From the NCBI GenBank assembly GCA_028278645.1, contig JANQDZ010000020.1:1-40506 (forward strand): DNA of 40,506 bases, read 5' to 3'. A program made the translations under genes and the position numbers. Positions 11,355 through 40,506 of the stretch are shown here, one piece after another. How positions within the stretch are numbered: position 1 is the stretch's first letter; every line of letters begins with the position of its first letter. This DNA comes from Longimicrobiales bacterium (GTDB lineage: Bacteria; Gemmatimonadota; Gemmatimonadetes; Longimicrobiales; Gaopeijiaceae). The notes beneath the pieces were generated by a model that searched no databases, was not told the DNA's origin, and saw only the letters and a list, made by a program, of their open reading frames with translations.

Positions 11355-11383
11355 TTGTCGTTTTGCCGAGACAGCAGTAGAGT
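11355..11383 (+). promoter_or_regulatory. Possible promoter of iorAB
   Basis: TTGTCG (11355-11360), a 17-bp spacer, then TAGAGT (11378-11383), placed 43 bp before the GTG start of iorA and inside the gap divergent from the transglutaminase-like gene. The matches are partial, so this is a suggestion only. Confidence 0.3.
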
Positions 11384-11426
11384 GTCCCAATGTACTGAGC
11401 CCGTATCTCTTGAACAGGAGCGTGGC

Positions 11427-13187
11427 GTGGCGAGGAAGCTGATGTCTGGGAACGAAGCCATCGCGCAGGGTGCCTGGGAAGCGGGAGTGACCTTCGCCGC
11501 GGGTTATCCGGGCACTCCCAGCACAGAGGTGCTCGAGAGCCTGGCCGGTTACGAAGGGGTGGATGCTCAGTGGTCCACCAACGAGAAGGTGGCTTTCGAC
11601 GAGGGCATGGGGGCGGCCCTTGGCGGTATCAGGACCCTGGTGACCATGAAGCATGTCGGGCTCAATGTCGCCGCCGACCCTTTTATGGTGTTCCCATACG
11701 CCGGCACAAACGGCGGGTTCGTGGTCTTGGTCGCGGACGACCCGGGCATGTACTCGTCCCAGAACGAACAGGACAGCCGTTACTTCGCGAAGATGGGGAA
11801 GGTCCCCCTCCTGGAGCCCAGCGACACCGATGAGGCCAGGACGATGATTCGGGAGGCCTATGAGCTCAGCGAGCGGTTCGCCTCACCCGTCATGTTCCGC
11901 ACCACTACTCGCCTGGCCCACACCCGAGGAATCGTTGAACCCGGAGCGCGGACCGACGTGCCCAGGCGGGATTTTTCCCCGGATTCAACTCGATATGCGA
12001 TCCCCGTCTATGCCCGTTTCCGGCGACCAGAGTTGGAAGAGAAGTTGGAGAGCCTAGGGGCGTTCGCAGAGGAATATGGCGGGAACGTCGTCGAAGAGGG
12101 CGATCCAGCTGTTGGGATCGTGACTCACGGAGTCCCGTACCAGTACGTAAAAGAGGTGGCGCCTGATGCCACGGTGCTTCGCCTGGGAATGCTCTACCCT
12201 CTCCCCGAACAGAAGCTCAAGGAATTCTGTGCTCGATTCGATAAGGTTTTTGTGGTGGAAGAGAGCGAGGGCTTCATTCAACAAGAGATGGCGAGCCTCG
12301 GGATCCAGAACGTGGTGGGCAAAGAGAGGTTCACGAACATTGGGGAACTCAGCGCGGACCTGGTGGCCGCCGGGCTGACTGGGGCACCGGTGCAAGAGGA
12401 CTTCTCCAAGGAGGTGGCCGTCCTTCCCCGACCTCCGAAGATGTGCGCTGGCTGCCCCCATTCCGGAACTTTCTCGGCCCTGAGGAAGCTCAAAGTGCTG
12501 GTCACGGGAGACATCGGCTGCTACACCCTGGGATGCCTCCCGCCCCTGAACGCCATCGACACGACATTTTGCATGGGTGCCAGCATCGGCAACGCTTCAG
12601 GATTCAGCAAGGCGGGCGAGGAAAAAGTGGTGGCTGTCATTGGGGATTCCACATTCCTCCACAGTGGCCTCCCAAGCCTCATGAGCGCTGTCTACAATCA
12701 GATCCCCACCACCATGATCCTCCTGGATAACAGCACCACGGGTATGACCGGCCACCAGGAGCACCCGGGGACGGGGCACACGCTTCAAGAGGCCCCCGCG
12801 CCTTCCGTCGACTTTGAGGCGTTGGTGAGATCTATCGGGGTGGAGCACGTGACGGTCATGGACCCATGGGAGTTGAAGGATATGCGACGGGCCGTGAAGG
12901 ATGCCCTTGCCCATCCGGGGCCAGCGGTGGTCATCGCCCGAAGGGCCTGCGTCCTCCTGCCGGAGGAGAAAGCGAGGGAGAGAATCCCTTACCGGGTGGA
13001 CGAGGAAGCCTGTATCCAGTGTGACTACTGCTACGAATCTGGCTGTCCGGCCCTGATTCGGGGAGCCGAATACCCCTGGATCCGGGAATGGGAATGCATC
13101 GGGTGCGACATATGCGCCCAACTCTGCCCGGTGGATGCGATCCTACCGGTGGAAGCCGGGACCCCCGCGGGATCCAAGGAGGGTTGA
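11427..13187 (+). CDS. iorA: Indolepyruvate:ferredoxin oxidoreductase, alpha subunit
   Basis: The thiamine-diphosphate subunit of an oxygen-sensitive 2-oxoacid oxidoreductase that converts arylpyruvates plus CoA to arylacyl-CoA, CO2 and reduced ferredoxin. The 586-residue protein starts MSGNEAIAQGAWEAG (or VARKL before it) and has AAGYPGTPSTE of the pyrimidine-binding domain. The TPP/Mg site is the GDSTFLHSGLPS...LLDNSTTGMTGHQ segment. Two C-terminal [4Fe-4S] motifs follow: CIQCDYCYESGCP and CIGCDICAQLCP. The start is taken as GTG at 11427, six bases after AGGAG; ATG at 11442 is the alternative. iorB follows after 3 bp. In the context of benzoyl-CoA enzymes it may supply arylacetyl-CoA and low-potential ferredoxin. 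Confidence 0.95.
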   Translation: MARKLMSGNEAIAQGAWEAGVTFAAGYPGTPSTEVLESLAGYEGVDAQWSTNEKVAFDEGMGAALGGIRTLVTMKHVGLNVAADPFMVFPYAGTNGGFVVLVADDPGMYSSQNEQDSRYFAKMGKVPLLEPSDTDEARTMIREAYELSERFASPVMFRTTTRLAHTRGIVEPGARTDVPRRDFSPDSTRYAIPVYARFRRPELEEKLESLGAFAEEYGGNVVEEGDPAVGIVTHGVPYQYVKEVAPDATVLRLGMLYPLPEQKLKEFCARFDKVFVVEESEGFIQQEMASLGIQNVVGKERFTNIGELSADLVAAGLTGAPVQEDFSKEVAVLPRPPKMCAGCPHSGTFSALRKLKVLVTGDIGCYTLGCLPPLNAIDTTFCMGASIGNASGFSKAGEEKVVAVIGDSTFLHSGLPSLMSAVYNQIPTTMILLDNSTTGMTGHQEHPGTGHTLQEAPAPSVDFEALVRSIGVEHVTVMDPWELKDMRRAVKDALAHPGPAVVIARRACVLLPEEKARERIPYRVDEEACIQCDYCYESGCPALIRGAEYPWIREWECIGCDICAQLCPVDAILPVEAGTPAGSKEG

Positions 13188-21064: not shown

Positions 21065-22138
21065 ATGAAAGTCTCAGCATGGACGGTTCACACGGGCGGA
21101 GAGCCCATGGTCCTGGAAGAGCGCGATGAGGATCCGGGTCCAGATGAGGCTCTGGTCGAGGTAGCCGGATGCGGGGTGTGCCACACGGATCTGGGGTTCT
21201 ACTACGACGGAATCCCCACCCGACATGGTTTCCCCCTCACACTTGGCCACGAGGTAAGCGGTACCGTAGTGGAGGCCGGCCCAGGGGCGGAAGAGTGGAT
21301 CGGTAAGGAAGTGGTGGTTCCGGCAGTCACACCCTGCGGGAAGTGCGACGCCTGTTTGAGCGGGCACGGCCGGGTTTGTCCCAAGCAGATCTTCCCTGGA
21401 AGCGATGTCCATGGGGGTTTCGCCAGCCACTTGAGAATCCCGGCGGTCGGCCTTTGTCCCGTTCCGGACCTGAGCGACCCCACCGTGAACCCCCAGGGGG
21501 TCACCCTCCCCTGCCTTTCGGTCCTGGCGGACGCCGTTTCCACGTCTTACCAGGCCATCGTGAGAAGCGGGCTGCAGGCCGGAGACCTGGCGGTATTCAT
21601 CGGAGCCGGAGGCCTGGGTTCCTTTGGAGTCCAGATCGCGTCTGCCATGGGGGCGAAGGTGGTGGCCGTGGACGTGAGCGAGGACCGCCTGGCCATGACC
21701 GCCGACCACGGCGCGGACCTCACGCTGAGAGCCGACGAGCTCGGTTTCAAGGACCTCAGGGGAGCGATCAAAGGACTGGCCAAGGAGAACGGCATCCCAA
21801 CGTATCGCCAAAAGATCTTTGAAACCTCAGGAACCGACGCGGGACAGGCCACGGCGTTCGGGCTTGTGGGCCACGGAGGTTACCTCTCCGTCGTCGGATT
21901 CACCGCGAAGAAGATCGAGATCCGGCTTTCGAACCTCATGGCCTTCGACGCCACCGCCGAGGGGGTCTGGGGATGCCTCCCTGAACACTATCCAGCCCTG
22001 GTGGACCTGGTCCTGGCCGGGAAAGTGGTTCTGGAGCCGTTCATCGAGCATCGCCCCATGTCCACCATCAATGACGTATTCGAAGATCTCCACGCCGGGA
22101 AAATTGCCCGACGCGTGATTCTCACTCCGGAGGGTTAG
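21065..22138 (+). CDS. had: 6-hydroxycyclohex-1-ene-1-carbonyl-CoA dehydrogenase
   Basis: A zinc-containing, NAD-dependent alcohol dehydrogenase of the MDR family (357 aa). It oxidises the hydroxyl formed by the dienoyl-CoA hydratase to 6-oxocyclohex-1-ene-1-carbonyl-CoA. The catalytic zinc site is in GCGVCHTDLGFYYDG (Cys39) with LGHEVSG. The structural zinc cysteines are in CGKCDACLSGHGRVCP, and the NAD site is FIGAGGLGSFGVQ. Generic alcohol dehydrogenases share these motifs. The specific call rests on the overall resemblance to Had/BamQ (for example QIFPGSDVHGGFASH and the LSVLADAVSTSYQAI stretch) and on the neighbouring oah and dch. The oah gene starts 3 bp after its stop. The ATG has GAGGA upstream. 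Confidence 0.92.
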   Translation: MKVSAWTVHTGGEPMVLEERDEDPGPDEALVEVAGCGVCHTDLGFYYDGIPTRHGFPLTLGHEVSGTVVEAGPGAEEWIGKEVVVPAVTPCGKCDACLSGHGRVCPKQIFPGSDVHGGFASHLRIPAVGLCPVPDLSDPTVNPQGVTLPCLSVLADAVSTSYQAIVRSGLQAGDLAVFIGAGGLGSFGVQIASAMGAKVVAVDVSEDRLAMTADHGADLTLRADELGFKDLRGAIKGLAKENGIPTYRQKIFETSGTDAGQATAFGLVGHGGYLSVVGFTAKKIEIRLSNLMAFDATAEGVWGCLPEHYPALVDLVLAGKVVLEPFIEHRPMSTINDVFEDLHAGKIARRVILTPEG

Positions 22139-22141
22139 GCC

Positions 22142-23257
22142 ATGTCCTTCTTTGACCACAACATCGACTCAGCTTTCGACTACGAGGGCGTCCTTTTCGA
22201 AGAGCGTCCCATCTACGACAAGGCGGGAGGGGTCATTGATGGCCTTCACGCAATCCAGGTCACGCTGAACAACCCAGCCCAGTACAACTCCTACACGACG
22301 GACATGGTGAAGGGTGTGATCATGGGCATGCGCCGGGCGTCAAACGACCGGGCCTGTGTGGCGGTGGTCTTCACGGGAGCCGGGGACAAAGCCTTCTGCA
22401 CCGGCGGGAATACCAAAGAGTACGCCGAGTACTACGCGGGCCAGCCAGAGGAGTACCGGCAGTACATGCGCCTCTTCAACGACATGGTCACGGCCATTCT
22501 CCACTGCGACAAGCCGGTGATCTGCCGCGTGAACGGGATGCGCATCGCCGGGGGTCAGGAGATCGGCATGGCGTGCGACTTCACCGTGGCCCAGGATCTG
22601 GCCCTCTTCGGCCAAGCCGGCCCCATGCACGGGTCCGCGCCAGACGGCGGCAGCACGGATTTCCTCCCTCTCTTCATCGGGGCCGAGGCGGCCATGGAGA
22701 GCTGCACCCTCTGTGAGCACTGGACTGCTCATAAAGCCTATCGCATGGGACTCATAACCAAGCTCGCACCGGCACTGAAGGTGGACGGGGAGTTCGTGCC
22801 GAACCCCATGGCCATCACCGACCGGTGGATCGACGACATGGGCCAGATCGTGTACGGAGAGCGCGTCGGTGGAGAGGATAAAACCAAAGCGAAGGAGATG
22901 CTGAAGTCTGGGGAAATAGACCTCTCTCTCCTGGACAAGGCCGTTGACTCCCTCATCACCTCCATGGTCATGACCATGCCCGGCTGCCTTGCCAAAACCG
23001 TGGAAAGCGTGAGGAAGCACAAGCTTTCCCATTGGGACAAGAACCGGGAGACCAACCGAGCCTGGCTGGGCTTGAACATGATGACCGAAGCCCGCGCAGG
23101 CTTCCGAGCGTTCAACGAGGGATCGAGGGAATGCCGGGAGGTCGACTTCATCCACATGAGAAAACGGTTGGCTCAGGGTGCCAAGTGGAACGCCGAGTTC
23201 ACCGAGGAGATCCTCTGGCGGGCTCACGGGAAAGACGGCCCGGACACCGGATCCTGA
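22142..23257 (+). CDS. oah/bamA: 6-oxocyclohex-1-ene-1-carbonyl-CoA hydrolase (ring-opening)
   Basis: The signature enzyme of anaerobic benzoyl-CoA degradation. It adds water and hydrolytically opens the alicyclic ring, giving 3-hydroxypimelyl-CoA. It is a crotonase-fold protein of 371 residues, the usual BamA length. The diagnostic stretches match my memory of BamA proteins closely: GNTKEYAEYYAGQPEEYRQY, MRLFNDMVTAILHCDKPVI, CRVNGMRIAGGQEIGMACDF and FGQAGPMHGSAPDGGSTDFL. These BamA-specific insertions distinguish it from ordinary enoyl-CoA hydratases. It lies between had and dch in one operon. The start at 22142 follows GGAGG in the end of had. BamA is the standard marker gene for this pathway. 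Confidence 0.97.
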   Translation: MSFFDHNIDSAFDYEGVLFEERPIYDKAGGVIDGLHAIQVTLNNPAQYNSYTTDMVKGVIMGMRRASNDRACVAVVFTGAGDKAFCTGGNTKEYAEYYAGQPEEYRQYMRLFNDMVTAILHCDKPVICRVNGMRIAGGQEIGMACDFTVAQDLALFGQAGPMHGSAPDGGSTDFLPLFIGAEAAMESCTLCEHWTAHKAYRMGLITKLAPALKVDGEFVPNPMAITDRWIDDMGQIVYGERVGGEDKTKAKEMLKSGEIDLSLLDKAVDSLITSMVMTMPGCLAKTVESVRKHKLSHWDKNRETNRAWLGLNMMTEARAGFRAFNEGSRECREVDFIHMRKRLAQGAKWNAEFTEEILWRAHGKDGPDTGS

Positions 23258-23308: not shown

Positions 23309-24100
23309 ATGGAAGCGACCCCTGAGATTCTGAGGGACGGGCCTGTCCGTTTGGAGGCTCTGGACGGTGGAGCCATCTGGAGGGCGACCCTGGCAACGCC
23401 GAAGGCGAACATCCTCGATATGGAGAAGTGTGAGATCCTTTCTGGAATCTTCAAGGAGGCGAGATCGGCCGAGGCCCTCAAGGCGGTGATTATAGACGCC
23501 GATGGCCCCCATTTCTCCTTCGGAGCCAGTGTCCAGGAGCATCTTCCCGACCAGATCGAGGCGATGCTGGGAGGTTTCCACCAGCTCTTTTATGACATCC
23601 TCGACGCAAGGGTACCGACCCTGGCCGCGGTCCGGGGTCAGTGCCTCGGCGGGGCCATGGAGCTGGCCATTTTCTGTAACCGCCTTTTTGCGGCACCTGA
23701 CGCGTTCCTTGGCCAGCCTGAGATCGTCCTGGGCGTGTTGGCTCCGGTCGCCTCGGTGATGCTGCCGGATCGGGTTGGCCGTGGCAGGGCAGAGAATCTA
23801 CTCCTTTCCGGGATGTCCATGTCGGCGGCGGAAGGCCTGGCAATCGGGTTGGTCGACGAACTCGCGGGGGATCCAGGCCAGGCGGCCATGGAGTACGCGA
23901 GGGAACAACTGCTTCCCAAGTCGGCCTCGAGCCTGCGGTATGCCGTTGCGGCGGCCCGGGGTGGCTTCGAGGAACGTTTCCGCAAGGAGTTGGCAGAGGT
24001 GGAGCGGCTATTCCTCGAAGAGCTGATTAAGACGCCGGACGCTCTCGAGGGCTTGAACGCCTTCCTGGAGAAGCGGAGTCCTGATTGGGAGGACGGGTGA
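23309..24100 (+). CDS. dch/bamR: Cyclohexa-1,5-diene-1-carbonyl-CoA hydratase
   Basis: A crotonase-family enzyme of 263 residues. It adds water to the product of benzoyl-CoA reductase, giving 6-hydroxycyclohex-1-ene-1-carbonyl-CoA for Had. The key stretch GPHFSFGASVQEHLP (oxyanion hole), followed by VRGQCLGGAMELAIFCNRLFA and LGQPEIVLGVLAPVASVMLP, is characteristic of Dch/BamR rather than ordinary enoyl-CoA hydratases. It is the last gene of the LeuA-like/had/oah/dch operon. The ATG is preceded by GGGAGGGAAAA. It converges on the cytochrome gene with a 3-bp gap, so no terminator fits between them. Confidence 0.93.
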   Translation: MEATPEILRDGPVRLEALDGGAIWRATLATPKANILDMEKCEILSGIFKEARSAEALKAVIIDADGPHFSFGASVQEHLPDQIEAMLGGFHQLFYDILDARVPTLAAVRGQCLGGAMELAIFCNRLFAAPDAFLGQPEIVLGVLAPVASVMLPDRVGRGRAENLLLSGMSMSAAEGLAIGLVDELAGDPGQAAMEYAREQLLPKSASSLRYAVAAARGGFEERFRKELAEVERLFLEELIKTPDALEGLNAFLEKRSPDWEDG

Positions 24101-24103
24101 GCC

Positions 24104-25369
24104 TTACCCCACACCGTGGCCGTAGATGACGAGCTCCCCAGCTTCCAGGAGGGCCCACCCGCGGCCTATGTAGTCGAATTCCTCTTTCCCGGCCGGCACC
24201 GGGTCTATCCTTATGGCGATCACCCCTCTCACCATGGCACCGGCGTTGTGATCGGCATCGGGATTGAAGTCAAATCCGTCTCCGCACCCGGAAGGAGAAT
24301 ACCTCTGCCCTCGATCCGGCGGCCCCGGCGCAGCTTGGGGCACCACGAGGCGTAACGGCCCTTCCCCGTTTGCACGACCTCGCTCGGCATCAAATCCAAA
24401 GGGATCCAGGGGTTCCCCATTCCTCTCGAACGCCAACATCAACCGGGGTTTGCCCTGTATAAGCCGGCCGGCGGCTATCTGATCCGCTTCCCCAACCGGT
24501 GACCGCCCCTCGCCTTCGGCACCGGCATCAAACAGGTAGTCCGGAAGAGCCTCCTGGTACCGGACAAATCCACACTCCTCCCCCAGGGCATCAGTGCTCA
24601 AGCCTGGTAAGAAGATGGGTTGGGGGAATTCCCGCACGACCGTTTGGATCGGCAACGACTTCAGGTACCCGTCGGGAGAAATCACCGTGATTCCTGTCGC
24701 GCCATCCAGGTCTACCCCGCCGAGGACCAGGACTTCCTCCAACGTGTAGCCCGAATAGGTGACGTAGTCGTCAAATTGCTGCTGGGTGTTGTTGGCAAGC
24801 AAAAGCTGGGTGGTCGGGGGGATAGTGCTCAGCTCCTCCAGAAGGAGGGTTCGGTACTCAGCGGTGGATTGGCCTGGGCGGCTCAGACTGCTCCCAGGAA
24901 ACCGTAGCGCCAACAGTTCTTCTTCGTTGGAGTATCCGTCCCCATCGGAGTCCCTGTGCCGAATCTCTCCTAGGGCTCGGAGACTCCGGCCAGCTTCCAG
25001 GTAGTCGCGTCCGAAAGGATTCAGGGTCGCGAAGGCCGCCGTGGCGGAATCCTGGAGAAGGAGCTGGTGGCAGTGGTCACAAGAGCTCTCCACCAACAGC
25101 CCGCCTTCAACTCTTCCAGAGTGACACGTCTGGCAATCGTCCACCCTGGTGCCAACCACAGCGGGTAACGTCGCGACGAGGAGGTCTGCGTCGATCTCTT
25201 CGGCATGGCCGGCATATGACCGCGAGAGATGAGGAGCCTCGTTCATGGCATCGTCTTGGATCGGGGCGCCATCCCGGGAGCAGCCGAGAACTATTGTTGC
25301 GGGTAGCAGAACCGCGAACCTGACCCGGGAGACAACGGCGGCGGAAAAACTCCAGATCCGGGAGGTCAT
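24104..25369 (-). CDS. Lipoprotein di-heme cytochrome c with sulfite-oxidase-like region
   Basis: A 421-residue exported electron carrier. The lipobox is PATIVLGC (Cys30). Two heme c motifs follow, CQTCH (79-83) and CDHCH (97-101), then a calcium-binding loop DSDGDGYSNEEE. The rest contains YTLEEVLVLGG, GATGITVISPDGY and GEGPLRLVVPQ, which resemble the sulfite-oxidase-type fold; no Moco cysteine is evident. The ATG overlaps the stop of the upstream membrane-protein gene (ATGA). It is encoded with two MoeA genes and next to the benzoyl-CoA operons, so a respiratory link is possible but unproven. I do not know a named family for the full protein. Confidence 0.75.
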   Translation of the reverse strand: MTSRIWSFSAAVVSRVRFAVLLPATIVLGCSRDGAPIQDDAMNEAPHLSRSYAGHAEEIDADLLVATLPAVVGTRVDDCQTCHSGRVEGGLLVESSCDHCHQLLLQDSATAAFATLNPFGRDYLEAGRSLRALGEIRHRDSDGDGYSNEEELLALRFPGSSLSRPGQSTAEYRTLLLEELSTIPPTTQLLLANNTQQQFDDYVTYSGYTLEEVLVLGGVDLDGATGITVISPDGYLKSLPIQTVVREFPQPIFLPGLSTDALGEECGFVRYQEALPDYLFDAGAEGEGRSPVGEADQIAAGRLIQGKPRLMLAFERNGEPLDPFGFDAERGRANGEGPLRLVVPQAAPGPPDRGQRYSPSGCGDGFDFNPDADHNAGAMVRGVIAIRIDPVPAGKEEFDYIGRGWALLEAGELVIYGHGVG

Positions 25370-32180: not shown

Positions 32181-32819
32181 ATGCTAAAACTCAGTACGAC
32201 CCAAAACCGGACTCCCGGCTTCGACGGGAAACGGCTCCACCTCCTGGAGTCGGCTGCCAGGGTCTTTTCCCAAGTCGGCTACGATGGGGCTTCCATGAGG
32301 CGCATCGCCGCAGAGGCTCAGGTCAGTCCAGCCGGCATTTACAACTACGTGACCGGCAAGGAAGAGCTCCTCTACTGGATCCAGTACCACACCTTCGATT
32401 CCCTTCTCAAAGGCCTGGAGCACAGCCTATCAGGAGTCGTGGACCCCCAGGAACGCCTGGCCACGGCGGTCCGGAATCACGTTCGTCACTTCGGTGAGAA
32501 CATGCATGAGCTGAAGGTCTGCGCCCGGGAGTTGGAAACCCTGGAGGGCGAGGCTTACGACGCAGTCCACGAATGCCGCCGCACCTACTTCGAAGCCGTC
32601 CATCAACTGGTGAAAGAACTCGAACCGACGGGAGGGTCCCGGCTGGATTCCTGGATAGCAACCGCCAACCTCTTCGGAATGATCAACTGGTTCTACCAGT
32701 GGTATGACGCCGGGCGAACCCAGGTCAGCCTCGACGACCTGGCCGCGCAACAAACCGCCCTCTTCCTGGACGGGTATTTCGCCTCCACATCCAACGGGGA
32801 CGACGGAGCCGACAAATGA
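32181..32819 (+). CDS. TetR/AcrR-family transcriptional regulator
   Basis: A 212-residue repressor-type protein. The N-terminal DNA-binding domain spans about residues 18-66, with the helix-turn-helix in ASMRRIAAEAQVSPAGIYNYV followed by GKEELLYWI. The C-terminal part is helical and resembles the TetR_C domain of acyl-CoA-responsive regulators such as FadR/PaaR types (WIATANLFGMINWFYQWY). It overlaps bamB by 4 bp (ATGA), so the regulator and the reductase are translationally coupled. That is an uncommon arrangement that ties repressor level to operon output. Its promoter and operator lie directly upstream. No strong ribosome site is visible before the ATG. Confidence 0.92.
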   Translation: MLKLSTTQNRTPGFDGKRLHLLESAARVFSQVGYDGASMRRIAAEAQVSPAGIYNYVTGKEELLYWIQYHTFDSLLKGLEHSLSGVVDPQERLATAVRNHVRHFGENMHELKVCARELETLEGEAYDAVHECRRTYFEAVHQLVKELEPTGGSRLDSWIATANLFGMINWFYQWYDAGRTQVSLDDLAAQQTALFLDGYFASTSNGDDGADK

Positions 32820-34825
32820 GGTATGCTGAGACGGGCTTCAACCTCGAGCTCGATTTGGCCAGAGGGAACATCGAGCGGGTGCCCACCGATGCCCATCTCT
32901 CCGAGCTACACCTCGGAGGACTTGGAACGAACGCCAGGCTCATGTGGGACAGAGTGGGCCCGGAGGTTGACGCTTTCGACGACGAGAACCTCCTGGTCTT
33001 CGGCACTGGGCTCCTGGCCGGGACTCCTGCGCCAGGTTGCAACCGGACCATCGTGTCCACCATCTCCCCTCAAACGAAGCTGATGGCTTTTTCCATGATG
33101 GGAGGTTTCTGGGGCCCAGAGCTGAAGCATGCAGGCTACGACAAGGTGGTCATCAAAGGAAAGTCCCCGGAATGGGTCTACATCTACATCAATGACGACA
33201 CCGTAGAGATCCGGGACGCAAAAAGGTTCGTGGGCCTTGGGACGCTGGAATCCGCCGAACTCATCCGGCAGGAGCTGGGTGAACCGAACGTCCAGATCTC
33301 GTCCATCGGCCTGGCCGGCGAGAACCGGGTCTGGTTCGCGTCGATTGAACAGGGGCGAGCCAGCGCCAGTCGCCTGGGCGTGGGCGCGGTCATGGGGGAC
33401 AAGAAAGTAAAAGCGATCGCCGTAAAAGGATCGAAAGACATCCAGATCGCAAAACCCCTGGATTTCATTCAACACTGCAACGACGCACTGAAGTACATCG
33501 AGAAGCGGGATAAAAATCCGATCCCGAACGTGATGCCCATCCTGGCCGGGCTCGGTTCCCCCCAGGAAATGGCCATTCACGACGAGAAATGGCACACAGA
33601 GAACTTCATGTGGGGGAATGCCCGGGAGCGAAGAAAGGAGTTCTGGACCGAGGAGATCCAGGAGGTTTGGACGGAGACCATGGAGACCATGCGGACCCGC
33701 CTCCTGAGCTGCCACAACTGTCCAATGAAATGCGGTGCATCCATCGCCGTGGACAAGCGCTTCTGCTCCTACATGATGAAGTGTTTCTCCAAGCTCACCT
33801 ACACCATGGGAGCTTATTCCGACCTGGACTTCGGGCTGCGGATCGCCCAGAAAGCCACGGAGCACGGGATCGACGCCTTCTCGGGCCCACAAACCATGGC
33901 TTTCGCGGTCGAGCTCTATGAGGCAGGAATCCTCACCGACAAGGAGATGCCCGACTTTCCGGCCGACAACGAGGGTCGGTTCTACTGGCTCCTGGACAGG
34001 ATCGTGCGGCGGGAAGGGATTGGTGACGTGCTTGCCGACGGCACCTACTGGGCTGCTGAAACCATCGGGAACGGTGCGGAGGAGTACGCTCACAACAACA
34101 TCAGAAAAACCGAGCAGCTCCCGCTGAAGCTCGGCATGCTGAATCCCATCTATTTCCTGATGTACTGCACCGGCGAGAAGGCCAACATCACCCAGATCGA
34201 AGGGAACTTCCCTCAAGCCCCCTTCTTCACCAGGGAAGAGAACGAAGCCTTCATCGAAGACTGGCCCCACGTCCCCCACGAGAAATTCAAGGAGTGGTTC
34301 GTGGAGTGGGAGCTGCGGGGTGAGAAATCCATACCGAACTATCCGCCCATTGATGCCACCTGCGAAATCGTGGACTGGCAGGAGAGGATGCACTACATCG
34401 ACGACAGCACCGGGATGTGCGCCGGTCTATCGTCCTTCCCCCTTAAGCCGCCCTTCCACATCCACAACCTTCCGGGACTGATCTCGGCGGGCACTGGGTT
34501 CGACCTGGACGAGGAAGGGCTGGTCCACCTTACCAAAAGAAACCGAAACCTCGTCCGGGCCAACAACCTCCGCCGGGGCCTGACCCGGGCGGACGAAAAG
34601 CCCCCCGAAGACCACTGGAAGAGGCGGTTCCCGGAGCTCGAGAAGAGGCTCCTGGACGAGTACTACACATATAAAGGGTGGAACCAGGAAGGGGTTCCAA
34701 CACGAGAAACCCTCGAGGACCTGGACCTCGGCTACGTATACGAAGAGTTCGTTCAGCGGGGGATTCTGAAGGAGGAGGAAAAGGCTACCGCAGGATCGGC
34801 CGCCCAGGAAGGCGGTGGGCCCTGA
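32816..34825 (+). CDS. bamB: Class II benzoyl-CoA reductase, tungsten active-site subunit
   Basis: An aldehyde:ferredoxin oxidoreductase-family protein of 669 residues. It carries the tungsten bis-pterin site that dearomatises benzoyl-CoA to the 1,5-dienoyl-CoA. The N-terminus (MRYAETGFNLELDLARGNIE, LHLGGLGTNARLMWDR, GCNRTIVSTISPQT) and long internal stretches (ILAGLGSPQEMAIHDEKWHT, YCTGEKANITQIEGNFPQAP, GLSSFPLKPPFHIHN) match BamB as I remember it, not general AORs. The cluster cysteines are in SCHNCPMKCGA (Cys299, Cys302, Cys306). Cys323 in YMMKCF is at the position of the W-ligating cysteine (Cys322) of Geobacter BamB. It overlaps tetR by 4 bp and bamC by 1 bp. Confidence 0.97.
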   Translation: MRYAETGFNLELDLARGNIERVPTDAHLSELHLGGLGTNARLMWDRVGPEVDAFDDENLLVFGTGLLAGTPAPGCNRTIVSTISPQTKLMAFSMMGGFWGPELKHAGYDKVVIKGKSPEWVYIYINDDTVEIRDAKRFVGLGTLESAELIRQELGEPNVQISSIGLAGENRVWFASIEQGRASASRLGVGAVMGDKKVKAIAVKGSKDIQIAKPLDFIQHCNDALKYIEKRDKNPIPNVMPILAGLGSPQEMAIHDEKWHTENFMWGNARERRKEFWTEEIQEVWTETMETMRTRLLSCHNCPMKCGASIAVDKRFCSYMMKCFSKLTYTMGAYSDLDFGLRIAQKATEHGIDAFSGPQTMAFAVELYEAGILTDKEMPDFPADNEGRFYWLLDRIVRREGIGDVLADGTYWAAETIGNGAEEYAHNNIRKTEQLPLKLGMLNPIYFLMYCTGEKANITQIEGNFPQAPFFTREENEAFIEDWPHVPHEKFKEWFVEWELRGEKSIPNYPPIDATCEIVDWQERMHYIDDSTGMCAGLSSFPLKPPFHIHNLPGLISAGTGFDLDEEGLVHLTKRNRNLVRANNLRRGLTRADEKPPEDHWKRRFPELEKRLLDEYYTYKGWNQEGVPTRETLEDLDLGYVYEEFVQRGILKEEEKATAGSAAQEGGGP

Positions 34826-35367
34826 TGGCTAAGAACGACAAGAGAATCATTAAGAACATCAGGATCGATGTCGACAAGTGTAATGGCTGCCGAGCGTGCG
34901 AGGTCATCTGCGCAGCTCACCACGCCCAGCCGAGGTTCAGCAGCACAAACCCGGCCCGTGCCCGGGTCAGGGTGATCCGGGAACCGCTGTCCGACATCTA
35001 CGTCCCCGTTTTCGCCGGTGAGTATACGGCCGCGGAGTGCGCAGGTCGGGACAAATACATTATCGACGGGAAGGAGTACGAAGAGTGCGCCTTCTGCCGT
35101 GCCTCATGTCCGTCCCGGGACATCTTCAAGGAACCGGATTCCGACCTCCCGCTGAAATGTGACATGTGTGAGTCCGACCCCACGCTGGAAGAGCCCCTTT
35201 GCGTCACTTGGTGCCTGGCCGATGCCCTCGTCTACGAAGAGCGGGAGGAAGACGCGGCTCCGGAGGCGAGGCCCGAGGAGGTCGACGAGGGCCTGGAGGC
35301 TTTGGCCAAGCGGCACGGTTGGGACAAGGTGATGGACGCCGTGAACAGAATGGGCAGCAAGGACTGA
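34825..35367 (+). CDS. bamC: Benzoyl-CoA reductase iron-sulfur subunit
   Basis: A 180-residue ferredoxin-like protein that feeds electrons to BamB. Twelve cysteines can build three [4Fe-4S] clusters: Cys19/22/25/29 (CNGCRACEVIC), then Cys72, Cys88/91/95 (CAFCRASC), Cys112/115 (CDMC), Cys126 and Cys130 (CVTWC). This matches the three-cluster BamC of the known BamBC heterotetramer. The open frame extends upstream to 34678, but the ATG at 34825 is right because it overlaps the bamB stop (TGATG) and starts the conserved region. The C-terminus is an acidic helix (EEREEDAAPEARPEEVDE). The bamD gene follows after 9 bp. Confidence 0.95.
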   Translation: MAKNDKRIIKNIRIDVDKCNGCRACEVICAAHHAQPRFSSTNPARARVRVIREPLSDIYVPVFAGEYTAAECAGRDKYIIDGKEYEECAFCRASCPSRDIFKEPDSDLPLKCDMCESDPTLEEPLCVTWCLADALVYEEREEDAAPEARPEEVDEGLEALAKRHGWDKVMDAVNRMGSKD

Positions 35368-35376
35368 GGGAGGAGC

Positions 35377-36618
35377 GTGAGCGCCGTGGAGACCGTCACC
35401 CCATTCGCCGAGATCATCGAAGAGATCAAAGAGGCGGGTGGTGATGCCTTCAAGTACTGCTACCAGTGCGGGAAGTGTGACGTGGTCTGTCCATGGAATA
35501 GGGTTCGGCCTTTCAGCATTCGGAAGATCGTCTGGCAAGCGGCGTTGGGCCTACCCGAAATCGAGCTGGACGAAATCTGGCGCTGCACAACCTGCGGGCG
35601 ATGCCCCTCCCACTGCCCAAGGGGCGTGGAACAAATCGAGGTCGGAGTCGCGATCCGGAGGATCGCCACGGCCTACGATGTCTTCCCCGCATCTGTGGGT
35701 GGAATCAGCACCGCCGGGTCCAGCCTCGCCACGGACGGGAACCCCCTGGGAGAAGACCGGGAAAACCGGGCCCAGTGGGCCAACGGCCTTTCGGTCAAGC
35801 CGTTCAAGGAGGGCATGGAGGTCCTTTTCTTTGTGGGTTGCTACTACGCCTACGACCCGAGGCTGAGGAAGGTCGCGGTCGCCACCGCCGACCTCCTGGA
35901 CAGGGCCGGAGTGGCTTTCGGCACCCTGGGCAGCAAAGAGAGCTGTTGCGGTGAGAGCATCCGGAAGACGGGGAACGAAGAGGTCTTCAAGAGCCTTGCC
36001 CGGGAAAACATCAAGGCCTTCATCGACCATGGCGTGAAAAGGGTCCTGGTGGCCTCCCCCCACTGCTACCACACGTTCAAGAACGAGTACCCGGAATTTA
36101 TGGTCCACCTGGACGTGGTCCACATCTCCCAGTACCTGATGGAGCTCGTGGAGGCCGGGCGATTGGAGGTGGACGGGGAGCTCCCCAAGAGAGTCACCTT
36201 CCACGACCCCTGCTACCTGGGGCGCCACAACGGCGTCTTCGAGGAACCCAGGGAGATCCTCGAAAAGCTGGAGGGCCTGGAACTGGTGGAGATGCCGGAC
36301 ACCCGGCAGGACAGCCTGTGCTGCGGAGGCGGGGGAGGCCGGATCTGGGCCGAAACTCCGAAAGGGGAGCGGTTCTCCGACCTGAGGGTGGAACAGGCTG
36401 TTGAGGTGGGAGCTCAGGTGTTGGCCACGGCCTGTCCCTACTGCATCAGCAACTTCGAGGAGAGCAGGCTGGCTCTGGGGGACCAGGCCCCAGAGATCAA
36501 GGACATCACGGAGGTCGTCCTGGAAGCGTTGCAGGGGAACGGAGGCCAGTCAGAGGGTGGCCAGGAGGGACCCGGCGAGACGGCCGAAAGGCCTTCAGGG
36601 AACGGGGGCCGGCCATGA
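35377..36618 (+). CDS. bamD: Heterodisulfide-reductase-like subunit (HdrC-HdrB type) of the Bam complex
   Basis: A 413-residue HdrD-like protein that fuses an HdrC-like ferredoxin region to HdrB-like CCG domains. Two [4Fe-4S] motifs are at Cys28/31/34/38 (CYQCGKCDVVCP) and Cys70/73/76/80 (CTTCGRCPSHCP). The two CCG modules are visible as GCYYAYDPR...ESCCGES...ASPHCYH and HDPCYLGRHNG...LCCGGGGG...ACPYC. Such domains ligate the non-cubane clusters of heterodisulfide reductase. The start is GTG at 35377, directly after GGGAGGAGC. It overlaps bamE by 4 bp. The last 30 residues are low-complexity Gly/Glu. In the Bam complex it is expected to pass electrons between BamE and BamBC. Confidence 0.92.
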   Translation: MSAVETVTPFAEIIEEIKEAGGDAFKYCYQCGKCDVVCPWNRVRPFSIRKIVWQAALGLPEIELDEIWRCTTCGRCPSHCPRGVEQIEVGVAIRRIATAYDVFPASVGGISTAGSSLATDGNPLGEDRENRAQWANGLSVKPFKEGMEVLFFVGCYYAYDPRLRKVAVATADLLDRAGVAFGTLGSKESCCGESIRKTGNEEVFKSLARENIKAFIDHGVKRVLVASPHCYHTFKNEYPEFMVHLDVVHISQYLMELVEAGRLEVDGELPKRVTFHDPCYLGRHNGVFEEPREILEKLEGLELVEMPDTRQDSLCCGGGGGRIWAETPKGERFSDLRVEQAVEVGAQVLATACPYCISNFEESRLALGDQAPEIKDITEVVLEALQGNGGQSEGGQEGPGETAERPSGNGGRP

Positions 36619-39600
36619 CCGGCCCCAACGGCGCCCCCAGGACCGGCGACGAGAAGGTCCTGCCGGGCACCCCCAGAGACGACTTCGGGGACGTTATGGT
36701 CGTGGGCGGAGGTATGAGCGGCATCCAGGCCTCCCTGGATCTGGCCTCGTCGGGGTTTAAGGTCTACCTGGTGGAAAAAGACCCCACCATCGGCGGGAAG
36801 ATGGCCCAGCTGGACAAGACCTTCCCCACCAACGACTGCTCGATGTGCATCGAATCCCCGAAGTTCATCGAGTGTGACCGGCATCCCAACATCGAGATCC
36901 TCACCTACACCGAAGTCGAAACGGTCGAGGGCGAGGCCGGAGATTTCGAGGTCACCCTCAACCGGAAACCCCGCTACGTCAACGAAGACCTCTGTACGGG
37001 GTGCACGGTCTGTGTCGAATACTGCCCCATCCATATCCCGGATCCGTTCAACCAGGAGCTGTCGGACAACAAGGCGACACACATCTATTTCTCCCAAGCA
37101 GTCCCCCTGGTCCCTTACATCGATGAACGGTGCGCGTATCTCCTGGACGGCCGCTGTTCGATCTGCGAGGGAGTCTGCCAGAACAAGGCCATCGATCTTC
37201 GGCAAAAGGCCGAGAAGAAGACCGTGAAGGTGGGGGCCATCGTCCTGGCACCAGGATACGGGGTATTCGACCCCCGGCTTCGGGGAGACTATGGATACGG
37301 GAAGCTGAAGAATGTGGTCACGAGCCTCGACTTCGAACGGCTGCTCTGTTCCACCGGGCCCCACGAAGGTGAGATCCTCCGCCCCTCAGACCAGAAGCAC
37401 CCCCACAAGATCGCGTGGATTCACTGTGTCGGGAGCAGGCAGATCCTGGAGGGAGGCCACAGCTACTGCTCTTCGGTCTGTTGTTCCTACATCCAGAAGC
37501 AAGTGATCCTGGCCAAAGACCACGACGCGGACACGGAAGCGGTCATCTTCCACAACGACATCCGGTCTTTCGGGAAGGACTTCGAGCGGTTCTACAACCG
37601 GGCTGCGAACCTCCCTGGTGTGGAGTTCATCCGAAGCTACGTCGAAATCGGCCGGGAGATTCCCGAGACAAAAAACGTCACCATCCGATACGCCACCGAC
37701 CAGGACGGCGTGAAGGAAGAGGAGTTCGACCTGGTGGTCCTGGGCGTAGGGCTCGGTCCTCCAGCTCAGGTTCACCACCTGGCCGAGCAGTTCGGCATCG
37801 AGCTCAACGAACACGGATTCTGCAAGACCAACCAGGTGAACCCCATCGAGACCAGCCGCCCGGGGGTTTTTGTCAGTGGCGCCTTCCAGGGGCCAATGGA
37901 CATCCCGGAATCGGTCATGAGCGCCAGCGGAACCAACGCCCTGGCGGGCGCACTTCTCAACGCCAGACGGGGCAAGCTGGACACGGAGAGGGTTTACCCG
38001 GAGGAGCGGGACGTCACCGAGGAGGAAATCAAGGTCGGGGTATTCACCTGCCACTGCGGTGCGAACATCGGCCGCGTGGTGGATATCCCGGACGTCACCG
38101 AGTACTCGAAGACACTACCCAACGTCGCCCACGCCGAAGAAGGCCTCTTCATCTGCTCCACCGACGCTGCGGCCCAGATCGCCGACACGATCCGTGAGAA
38201 GGGGCTGAACCGGGTTGTGGTGGCTGCTTGTACGCCCCGGACCCATGAGCCCCTCTTCCGAGACACCCTCCGGGAGGGTGGCATCAACCAATACTTCTTC
38301 GACATGGCGAATATCCGGGAGCACTGCTCCTGGGTCCATTCGAAGGAGAAGGAAAAGGCCACCGCGAAGGCCAAGGACATCATTCGGATGTCCGTAGCCA
38401 GGACCACCGGCCTGGAGCCCCTCCAGGAGTACGAACTCCCCGTCAACAAAGCGGCCCTGGTGGTAGGCGGAGGTGTGGCCGGGTTGAACAGCGCCCTTGG
38501 CTTGGCCAACCAGGGGTTCGAAGTCCACCTGGTGGAGAAGGAGGATGAGCTGGGCGGGATGGCACGGCGCATACAAAACACCCTGGAAGGGGTGGACGTC
38601 CAGGCCTACTTGAAGAACCTCATTCGCCAGGTCTATCAACACCGGCTAATCCACGTCCTTCACGGCGCCACCATCGTAGACGCCTCGGGATACGTGGGGA
38701 ACTTCATCACGACCGTAGAGGCCGAGGGGCGAACCAAAGAGATCCAGCACGGAGTCACCATCCTCGCCACCGGTGCGGAGGAGCACACGCCGACCGAGTA
38801 CCTGTACGGAGAGGACGAACGGATTTGCACACAGCTCCAATTGGAGGAACGGCTGGCGGCTGGCAAGGCGGATCCGGAGGAGAGCCTGACGACGCTCGGG
38901 CCAGAGTTGGAGGACGTCGACCGTGTGGTGATGATCCAGTGTGTCGGATGCAGGCAGGAGGGCCGGGATTACTGCGCCCGGATCTGCTGCAGCCAGGCCA
39001 TCAAGAACGCCCTGAGCCTGAAGGCCCGAAAACCCGACATGGACATCTCGATCTTGTATCGGGACATGCGGACCTACGGCTTCAAAGAAGACTACTACCT
39101 GGAAGCCGCCGAGAAGGGCGTTCGGTTTGTGCGTTGGGAACCGGATAATCGACCCGAGGTGGAGCCCGGAAAGGACGAAGCCGGCCAGCCCGTTCTTCAG
39201 GTCACCGTCCCCGATGTGATCCTCGGGCAGCGGCTGGCTCTAGACGCCGATCTCCTCGTCCTCTCTGCGGCGGCGGTTCCTTCGGCAGGCAACCCCGAGG
39301 TATCCCGCCTCTTCAAGGTGCCGGTGAATCCCGACGGGTTCTTCCAGGAGGCTCACGTAAAACTCCGGCCGGTGGACTTCGGCGCCGACGGTGTCTTCAT
39401 GTGCGGGGCGAATCACTATCCGAAGCACCTCTCGGAGGCGGTGAGTCAGGCCTATGGGGCAGCCGGTCGAGCCGTGACACTCCTCTCTCATGAGACGGTT
39501 ACGGCCTCGGGTTCTGTTTGTGAGGTGGAAGAATCGGCCTGCATCGCCTGCGGGGCGTGTCTGGATGCATGCACGTACGACGCCATCCACTGGACCGGGA

Positions 39601-39761
39601 GGAAAGCATCCCAGAAAGCCGCCGTGAACCCGGCCCTCTGCAAGGGCGACGGCCTTTGCTGTTCCTTCTGTCCCACCGATGCCATCACCCTCCGGCATTT
39701 CACCAACGAGGAGGTTTTCAACCAGATCGACGCGGCTCTGTCCGAATCGTGGAGCGGGTGA
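36615..39761 (+). CDS. bamE: HdrA-like flavin/iron-sulfur subunit of the Bam complex
   Basis: A 1048-residue protein with two HdrA-like halves. The first has an FAD Rossmann motif VMVVGGGMSGIQASLDLA (from about residue 27), then NDCSMCIESPKF, a ferredoxin motif CTGCTVCVEYCP, and CSICEGVCQ. The second FAD motif, ALVVGGGVAGLNSALGLA, starts near 613. The C-terminus (about 975-1026) has CIACGACLDACTYDAI and CKGDGLCCSFCPTDAI, a two-cluster ferredoxin. The double-HdrA arrangement is like that of BamE and of other large HdrA proteins proposed to carry out flavin-based electron bifurcation. It overlaps bamD by 4 bp (ATGA). A 114-bp gap separates it from bamF. It is expected to be cytoplasmic. Confidence 0.93.
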   Translation: MTGPNGAPRTGDEKVLPGTPRDDFGDVMVVGGGMSGIQASLDLASSGFKVYLVEKDPTIGGKMAQLDKTFPTNDCSMCIESPKFIECDRHPNIEILTYTEVETVEGEAGDFEVTLNRKPRYVNEDLCTGCTVCVEYCPIHIPDPFNQELSDNKATHIYFSQAVPLVPYIDERCAYLLDGRCSICEGVCQNKAIDLRQKAEKKTVKVGAIVLAPGYGVFDPRLRGDYGYGKLKNVVTSLDFERLLCSTGPHEGEILRPSDQKHPHKIAWIHCVGSRQILEGGHSYCSSVCCSYIQKQVILAKDHDADTEAVIFHNDIRSFGKDFERFYNRAANLPGVEFIRSYVEIGREIPETKNVTIRYATDQDGVKEEEFDLVVLGVGLGPPAQVHHLAEQFGIELNEHGFCKTNQVNPIETSRPGVFVSGAFQGPMDIPESVMSASGTNALAGALLNARRGKLDTERVYPEERDVTEEEIKVGVFTCHCGANIGRVVDIPDVTEYSKTLPNVAHAEEGLFICSTDAAAQIADTIREKGLNRVVVAACTPRTHEPLFRDTLREGGINQYFFDMANIREHCSWVHSKEKEKATAKAKDIIRMSVARTTGLEPLQEYELPVNKAALVVGGGVAGLNSALGLANQGFEVHLVEKEDELGGMARRIQNTLEGVDVQAYLKNLIRQVYQHRLIHVLHGATIVDASGYVGNFITTVEAEGRTKEIQHGVTILATGAEEHTPTEYLYGEDERICTQLQLEERLAAGKADPEESLTTLGPELEDVDRVVMIQCVGCRQEGRDYCARICCSQAIKNALSLKARKPDMDISILYRDMRTYGFKEDYYLEAAEKGVRFVRWEPDNRPEVEPGKDEAGQPVLQVTVPDVILGQRLALDADLLVLSAAAVPSAGNPEVSRLFKVPVNPDGFFQEAHVKLRPVDFGADGVFMCGANHYPKHLSEAVSQAYGAAGRAVTLLSHETVTASGSVCEVEESACIACGACLDACTYDAIHWTGRKASQKAAVNPALCKGDGLCCSFCPTDAITLRHFTNEEVFNQIDAALSESWSG

Positions 39762-39763
39762 AG

Positions 39764-39871
39764 ATGTCCGCGCCCCGGACTTCCGCGGACGCAGGTCCCG
39801 TCGAACGCCGGCCGGCACAGACGGCCAGCAGCACGGGGCACTCCCATCCCTTCGGTGAGGAAAGGAGGTAA
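39764..39871 (+). CDS. Possible 35-codon ORF between bamE and bamF (doubtful)
   Basis: ATG at 39764 follows the bamE stop by 2 bp, and the frame ends at TAA 39869-39871, overlapping the bamF ribosome site. The product would be basic and Pro/Ser/Thr-rich (starting MSAPRTSADAGPVERR), and I recognise no family. Translation through it could unfold or couple to the bamF start. It may equally be chance, because the same frame is open far upstream inside bamE. Confidence 0.2.
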   Translation: MSAPRTSADAGPVERRPAQTASSTGHSHPFGEERR

Positions 39872-39875
39872 GGAT

Positions 39876-40506
39876 ATGGCGGGTCAAGGACACACGCCGA
39901 GGATCGTCGCTTTCCTCTGTAACTGGTGAGCTTATTCCGCTGCGGATCTCTCTGGCGTGACCAGACAAAGTTATGCACCGGAAATTCGAATCATACGGCT
40001 CATGTGCACCGGCCGGATCGACCTCGCTTTCGTCCTCCGAGCCTTCCAGAAGGGAGCGGACGGGGTGATCATCGGAGGCTGTTGGCTCGGCGAGTGCCAC
40101 TACGTCACCGAAGGGAATTACTACGCCCTGAACATGATGCACCTCTGCAAGAGGTTGCTCGAGCGAACGGGGATGGACCCCGGGCGTCTCCGACTGGAGT
40201 GGATCTCGGCCTCCGAGGGGACACGATTCGCGGAGGTCATGAACGACTTCGCCGGCCAGCTTCGGGAGCTAGGACCGTTGGGAGAGGGAGAAGGGGTGGA
40301 CCAGGCGGAGCTCCAAGGCAAGCTGGAGGAGACCCGGGAGCTGATTCCCTACATCAAGATCCAGAAGAAGGAAAAGCTGGCCCTCCGTCTCGACACCCAA
40401 GAGGAGTACGACGAGCTGTATTCCAGGGACGAAGTGGACCAGATCTTCTCCGAAGTTGTGTCCTACTGGGTGGATCCTGAGAAGTGCCAAGCCTGCATGA
40501 TCTGTG
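39876..40506 (+). CDS. bamF: MvhD-like selenoprotein subunit of the Bam complex (UGA = Sec18; partial)
   Basis: The ATG at 39876 follows a strong AAAGGAGG site by 7 bases. Reading through the TGA at 39927-39929 as selenocysteine gives a continuous 210-codon frame to the window edge. The N-terminus RIVAFLCNWU (Cys15, Sec18), then IRIIRLMCTGRID, GADGVIIGGCWLGECHY and LEWISASEGTRFAEV, are the conserved MvhD/VhuD elements, whose CNWC site holds a [2Fe-2S] cluster or redox pair. Near the right edge CQACMIC starts a ferredoxin domain. MvhD-type proteins link HdrA to a hydrogenase or NADH module, so here BamE to BamGHI. Stopping at TGA would leave 17 residues, while conservation continues unbroken in the same frame, so neither pseudogene nor frameshift fits. 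The gene runs off the right edge. Confidence 0.9.
39920..39974 (+). promoter_or_regulatory. Putative bacterial SECIS element of bamF
   Basis: A hairpin downstream of the UGA (39927-39929) has stem UCUGG (39951-39955) with CCAGA (39961-39965) and loop CGUGA. The loop starts 26 nt after the UGA and has G at its second position, as in the published bSECIS consensus as I recall it. A second helix UAACU (39920-39924) with AGUUA (39969-39973) would enclose the UGA, with a G-U extension. Folding was done by eye only. Confidence 0.6.

Follow-up and report, generated by a model that had tools for sequence, protein, structure and literature searches.

The bam gene cluster and its genomic setting

The window (the whole 40,506-nucleotide stretch of DNA that was analysed) is the entire contig C45 of a Gemmatimonadota genome, and carries five genes on the forward strand in the order bamB-C-D-E-F. 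The cluster begins with bamB (32816–34825; AFOR_N and AFOR_C domains), for the tungsten-type catalytic subunit, which is preceded directly upstream by a TetR-type regulator (32181–32819, forward strand; TetR_N and TetR_C_24). The iron-sulfur subunit gene bamC (34822–35367; Fer4) lies in an open reading frame that is open from 34678, with homology from near 34822; its product aligns to the BamC places of relatives, in three of them from about residue 49. It is followed by bamD (35377–36618), for an HdrB/HdrC-like subunit with CCG and Fer4 domains whose place is conserved in relatives, and by bamE (36615–39761), for an HdrA-like flavin and iron-sulfur subunit in its Cys form (HdrA2 family, 935.6 bits). 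The first 210 of the 278 codons of bamF, with an in-frame TGA read as selenocysteine (Sec), occupy 39876–40506; the remaining codons lie on contig C16.

BamB scores 1082.9 bits against the class II benzoyl-CoA reductase of Geobacter metallireducens (PDB:4z3w) versus 210.2 bits against the next AOR, and it is the sole close copy in the genome; a reading of the DNA made from sequence only had thus named the enzyme correctly. The same contig holds the pathway genes had, oah and dch, approximately 9 kb from the cluster and all above curated cut-offs, the forward-strand features there being a TIGR03201 match (21065–22138; 451 bits, cut-off 338.65), a TIGR03200 match (22142–23257; 569 bits, cut-off 464.45) and dch itself, for cyclohexa-1,5-dienecarbonyl-CoA hydratase (23309–24100; TIGR03189, 295.8 bits, cut-off 292.5). 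A GEGP-motif diheme protein is encoded next to dch on the reverse strand (24104–25369; NF041762, 377.5 bits, cut-off 300). An indolepyruvate ferredoxin oxidoreductase alpha subunit is encoded at 11355–13187 on the forward strand (TIGR03336, 659 bits, cut-off 650.9) and is a possible source of reduced ferredoxin.

The cluster might instead encode a selenoprotein-containing AOR/Hdr-type complex acting on another substrate. Several bamB homologues occur in Geotalea daltonii (PMC13119186), which leaves room for paralogues with a different role; furthermore, bamG, bamH and bamI do not adjoin the cluster, and the most BamH-like gene in the genome sits in a formate dehydrogenase cluster. Nonetheless, the score of BamB against a solved benzoyl-CoA reductase compared with that against the next AOR, its presence as the only close copy, and the nearby had, oah and dch genes make an assignment to another substrate unlikely.

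An in-frame UGA at the second redox cysteine of BamF

The ATG of bamF at 39876 is preceded by GAAAGGAGGTAAGGAT, a strong ribosome binding site (AGGAGGT, 39863–39869). With TGA translated as U, the product begins MAGQGHTPRIVAFLCNWUAYSAADLSG..., and the frame stays free of stops as far as the window runs, for 210 codons, of which 192 lie downstream of the TGA. The UGA (39927–39929) corresponds to residue 18, the second position of the CxxC pair (CNWU in this protein), and family homology flanks it on both sides: residues 10–133 match the full Pfam FlpD profile (PF02662, positions 1–123 of 123) with 166.5 bits against a cut-off of 22.3. The best solved MvhD/VhuD relatives (7bkb, 5odc, 8rvu) have CNWC at this site. 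The sequence-only reading had placed the TGA at the second redox cysteine of the MvhD motif FLCNWC, followed by more than 190 codons of family conservation in frame and preceded by a strong ribosome site, and had proposed aligning homologues to look for Cys at this column; the frame, the profile match and the solved relatives agree with it on each of these points.

The start of contig C16 (C16:1-99) is an exact copy of the final 99 bases of the window, an overlap of the kind that assembly-graph breaks leave. The bamF frame runs on there. The joined product has 278 residues with no second stop, and ends in a 2[4Fe-4S] ferredoxin domain, as identified by Pfam in a congener's gene of 90% identity. 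The assembly of a related genome (G330) likewise breaks within bamF (L132, L136), and its two contig ends at the break also share sequence. Scanning the whole source genome with PF02662 revealed the bamF copy with its one internal TGA and, elsewhere, two stop-free copies within large fusion frames.

Under the standard code the only in-frame bamF ORF starts at GTG 39957 and comprises 183 codons, so that a gene caller would lose the N-terminus together with the redox motif, much as had been anticipated from the sequence. The same GTG offers a reading in which the UGA is a real stop, bamF being either a pseudogene or restarted at 39957 to give a shorter protein without the CxxC. This is very unlikely, given the ribosome site ahead of ATG 39876, the conservation of the N-terminal motif, before as well as behind the UGA, in every relative, the absence of any other stop through 278 residues, and the Sec apparatus of the genome (see below).

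Conservation of the UGA among BamF relatives

In a tree of 120 FlpD domains the ten BamF genes form one clade with 100/100 support, and all are of the Sec type, whilst most of the non-BamF rows are Cys. The clade comprises members from Gemmatimonadota, Rokubacteria, two Planctomycetota, three Geomonas, NaphS2 and one more of the Thermodesulfobacteriota. TGA stands at the Sec18 codon in all ten orthologues (10/10), which come from independent assemblies of several phyla, Geomonas isolates included; this is more than chance would give. Of the BamF genes in the named genome collection, the nearest are those of a Gemmatimonadetes MAG (89% identity), a Rokubacteria genome (67%) and three Geomonas species (60–61%), and two Planctomycetota genes show 59% and 72% identity over shorter stretches. 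The Gemmatimonadetes MAG is congeneric with the source genome (G001:C522:3495-4124, a locus also recorded as G410:C522:3495-4124, under which it is assigned to the same genus). The TGA also occurs in bamF of another genus of the host's family; among 395 genomes sampled from the phylum, a TGA-type match was found in two, the source genome and this one. As the closest tree rows include Rokubacteria and Planctomycetota, horizontal transfer of bamF is likely.

Across the FlpD family as a whole, the starred branches of the tree force at least three changes between Sec and Cys at this column. Many FlpD paralogues of these anaerobes (L142, L143, L146, L148-L151, L153-L155) have Sec at a second site, of the UHPGDC or UHLGEC type, and two of them (L143 and L153) carry both Sec sites within one protein. 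In one planctomycete MAG (L025:3844-4455) the BamF linker behind the FlpD domain has some 50–60 extra residues, which resemble an inserted repeat.

The sequence-only reading had named TGC or TGT reads at 39927–39929 as an outcome that would count against it. An ordinary Cys protein with a sequencing or assembly error for TGC/TGT could be imagined here, as the contig ends at an assembly break 577 bases past the TGA; however, the same codon is TGA in the congeneric MAG, the other genus of the family, Rokubacteria, two Planctomycetota, three Geomonas isolates, NaphS2 and another member of the Thermodesulfobacteriota, and we regard an error as scarcely credible.

A putative SECIS hairpin behind the UGA

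A putative SECIS apical hairpin, UCUGG-CGUGA-CCAGA, lies at 39951–39965 on the forward strand, with its loop 27–31 nt behind the UGA and a G at the second loop position. The stem pairs 26–29/35–38 are invariant in the ten BamF (TGA) genes. Among distinct genes, the motif CUGG-N4-6-CCAG is present in 11 of 12 with Sec versus 6 of 90 with Cys, and the Arg codon on the 3′ side of the hairpin is AGA or AGG in 11/12 versus 24/90; the corresponding Fisher p values (8e-10 for the motif and 2e-5 for the codon) overstate independence, since the compared genes are related. The core pairs never vary among the ten TGA genes, so that there is no covariation, and covariation cannot prove the pairing. Folded singly, 64 nt around the UGA did no better than shuffles, and at gathering scores Rfam gave no match in the window. 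Overall synonymous conservation behind the bamF UGA is 0.59 versus 0.52, a rise too slight to be the main evidence. These data make a good case for probable constraint at the RNA level behind the UGA, and a moderate one for the exact SECIS structure predicted here.

Selenocysteine apparatus of the source genome

A search for selA, selB, selD and a tRNA-Sec gene had been suggested as a check on the selenoprotein reading, and all four are present in the source genome, which is 95.6% complete: selA scores 532.7 bits, selD 377 bits, and both selB and tRNA-Sec lie above their cut-offs. The lack of selB and tRNA-Sec, which the sequence-only reading had named as an outcome against it, is therefore not what the genome shows. 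The selD gene (C84:26928-27851, L100) has a TGA of its own in GSGUACK and is, by its sequence, predicted to be a selenoprotein gene itself. UGA can hence be decoded as selenocysteine in this organism, and the apparatus, together with the TGA in relatives, supports the selenoprotein reading of bamF. As selA is found in 92 of the 121 genomes of the host's family, the Sec trait is not special to this strain.

Layout without adjacent bamGHI

The genes for the NADH-dehydrogenase-like module, bamG, bamH and bamI, do not adjoin the cluster, and no convincing candidate was found elsewhere in the genome. With the genome 95.6% complete, their absence is unproved; with none found, a complete reductase complex is not established. 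Downstream of bamF, an M16 peptidase gene lies on the opposite strand in the source genome (C16), and argR and arginine genes follow in the congener. The best BamH-like candidate in the source genome (55% identity, C27) lies among NuoE and formate dehydrogenase alpha genes; we did not take it to be BamH.

Clusters of the Gemmatimonadota, Rokubacteria and NaphS2 type consist of bamBCDEF, with no bamGHI found adjoining, and in these BamF ends in the ferredoxin domain, which aligns to the C-terminal ferredoxin domain of BamH at approximately 50% identity. Conversely, in Geomonas and in one planctomycete (L024) bamG, H and I follow directly after bamF, and BamF is without the ferredoxin end. Tentatively, and with rather less than even odds, the class II reductase of the former type may be a bamBCDEF-only enzyme, in which the fusion of a Sec-MvhD domain to a BamH-like ferredoxin domain would take electrons straight from ferredoxin and replace the NADH-linked BamGHI, the high-potential side of the bifurcation having another partner.

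Proposed function of Sec-BamF

Computation shows for bamF an open frame, a UGA shared by all ten orthologues and the hairpin motif, and around it the operon, the pathway genes and the Sec apparatus of the genome. These are best explained if bamF codes for a BamF with selenocysteine, as a subunit of a class II (tungsten-type, ATP-independent) benzoyl-CoA reductase, a reading to which we assign a probability of roughly 0.93. SelB and Sec-tRNA would decode the UGA at 39927, aided by the SECIS hairpin just behind it. The product would comprise an MvhD-type domain, with CxxU in place of the CxxC of the [2Fe-2S] family, and a C-terminal 2[4Fe-4S] ferredoxin domain.

For class II benzoyl-CoA reductases flavin-based electron bifurcation has been proposed (PMC11971306), and in MvhD electrons pass from a [2Fe-2S] cluster to the HdrA flavin (PMC6019823). 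Sec-BamF most likely receives electrons from ferredoxin or a different donor and hands them to BamE, the HdrA-like flavin subunit, where bifurcation would supply the low-potential electrons that BamB uses for ring reduction; Sec-BamF feeding BamE is the simplest mechanism. Sec18 may tune the cluster or speed electron exchange. From the above we infer that Sec is actually inserted, that Sec18 has a role in the cluster or in redox chemistry, and that electrons take this route; growth on benzoate would presumably depend on selenium.

If so, a Gemmatimonadota lineage, in a family widely endowed with the selenocysteine synthase gene selA, has a ring-reducing enzyme that probably depends on selenium and tungsten and that standard annotation would cut short. 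As BamF is of the Sec type in every orthologue seen, the supply of selenium may be a more general limit on anaerobic benzoate degradation of the ATP-independent kind. The bamGHI-free layout, moreover, provides a handle on which donor and acceptor a bifurcating class II enzyme uses.

Comparison with known systems

Both W and Se have been described in class II enzymes, and selenocysteine in the megadalton Bam complex. Selenocysteine-containing proteins in the benzoate metabolism of Desulfococcus multivorans were reported in 2004, going by a title cited in PMC13119186, and the CxxU of the MvhD/FlpD family is listed as an experimentally verified Sec motif (PMC13188914). Since selenium in the benzoate metabolism of strict anaerobes and Sec at this motif were already known, novelty is limited: of the earlier suggestion that a Sec-BamF in this lineage is noteworthy, the part concerning the host stands, whilst selenium is no novelty in class II benzoyl-CoA reductase systems. 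What is new is the host phylum Gemmatimonadota, where Sec-BamF was not expected (37 representative FCB-superphylum genomes, Gemmatimonadota among them, had neither bcr nor bam genes; PMC10936416), and the layout common to the window, Rokubacteria and NaphS2, namely bamBCDEF without adjacent bamGHI and with a ferredoxin domain fused to BamF.

The Sec MvhD/VhuD/FrhD proteins of methanogens and Deltaproteobacteria have PF02662 and the CxxU position in common with the BamF of the window. They serve hydrogenase, formate dehydrogenase and heterodisulfide reductase complexes, whereas the gene for this BamF belongs to a benzoyl-CoA reductase operon, and its product carries a ferredoxin domain in addition.

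The Geobacter metallireducens BamBCDEFGHI and Geomonas clusters resemble the window in their bamB-C-D-E-F order and BamB family, and the three Geomonas genomes carry TGA at the same BamF codon. In Geomonas, however, bamF is succeeded by bamG, H and I, whereas in the window it is the last gene and has the ferredoxin end. The annotation of Geobacter BamF gives it an HTH end (PMC1924859); G. metallireducens has one FrhD selenoprotein listed (PMC1794560), which we take to be BamF.

Desulfococcus multivorans is likewise a class II benzoyl-CoA reductase organism with selenium; it has five Sec genes, MvhD and BamE among them, so that the Sec bam subunit listed is BamE, BamF not being in the list (PMC5109826). 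In layout the window resembles NaphS2 and the other member of the Thermodesulfobacteriota (L129, L131), which have bamBCDEF and a Sec-BamF with the ferredoxin end, with no bamGHI in the stretch examined. Their BamE has an in-frame TGA (NDCSMU; L129:6355-9387, L131:5130-8156), which fits the Sec BamE reported for D. multivorans, whereas the BamE of the window (36615–39761) has no in-frame TGA and reads CSMC where NaphS2 has CSMU, as the other relatives also lack a TGA there.
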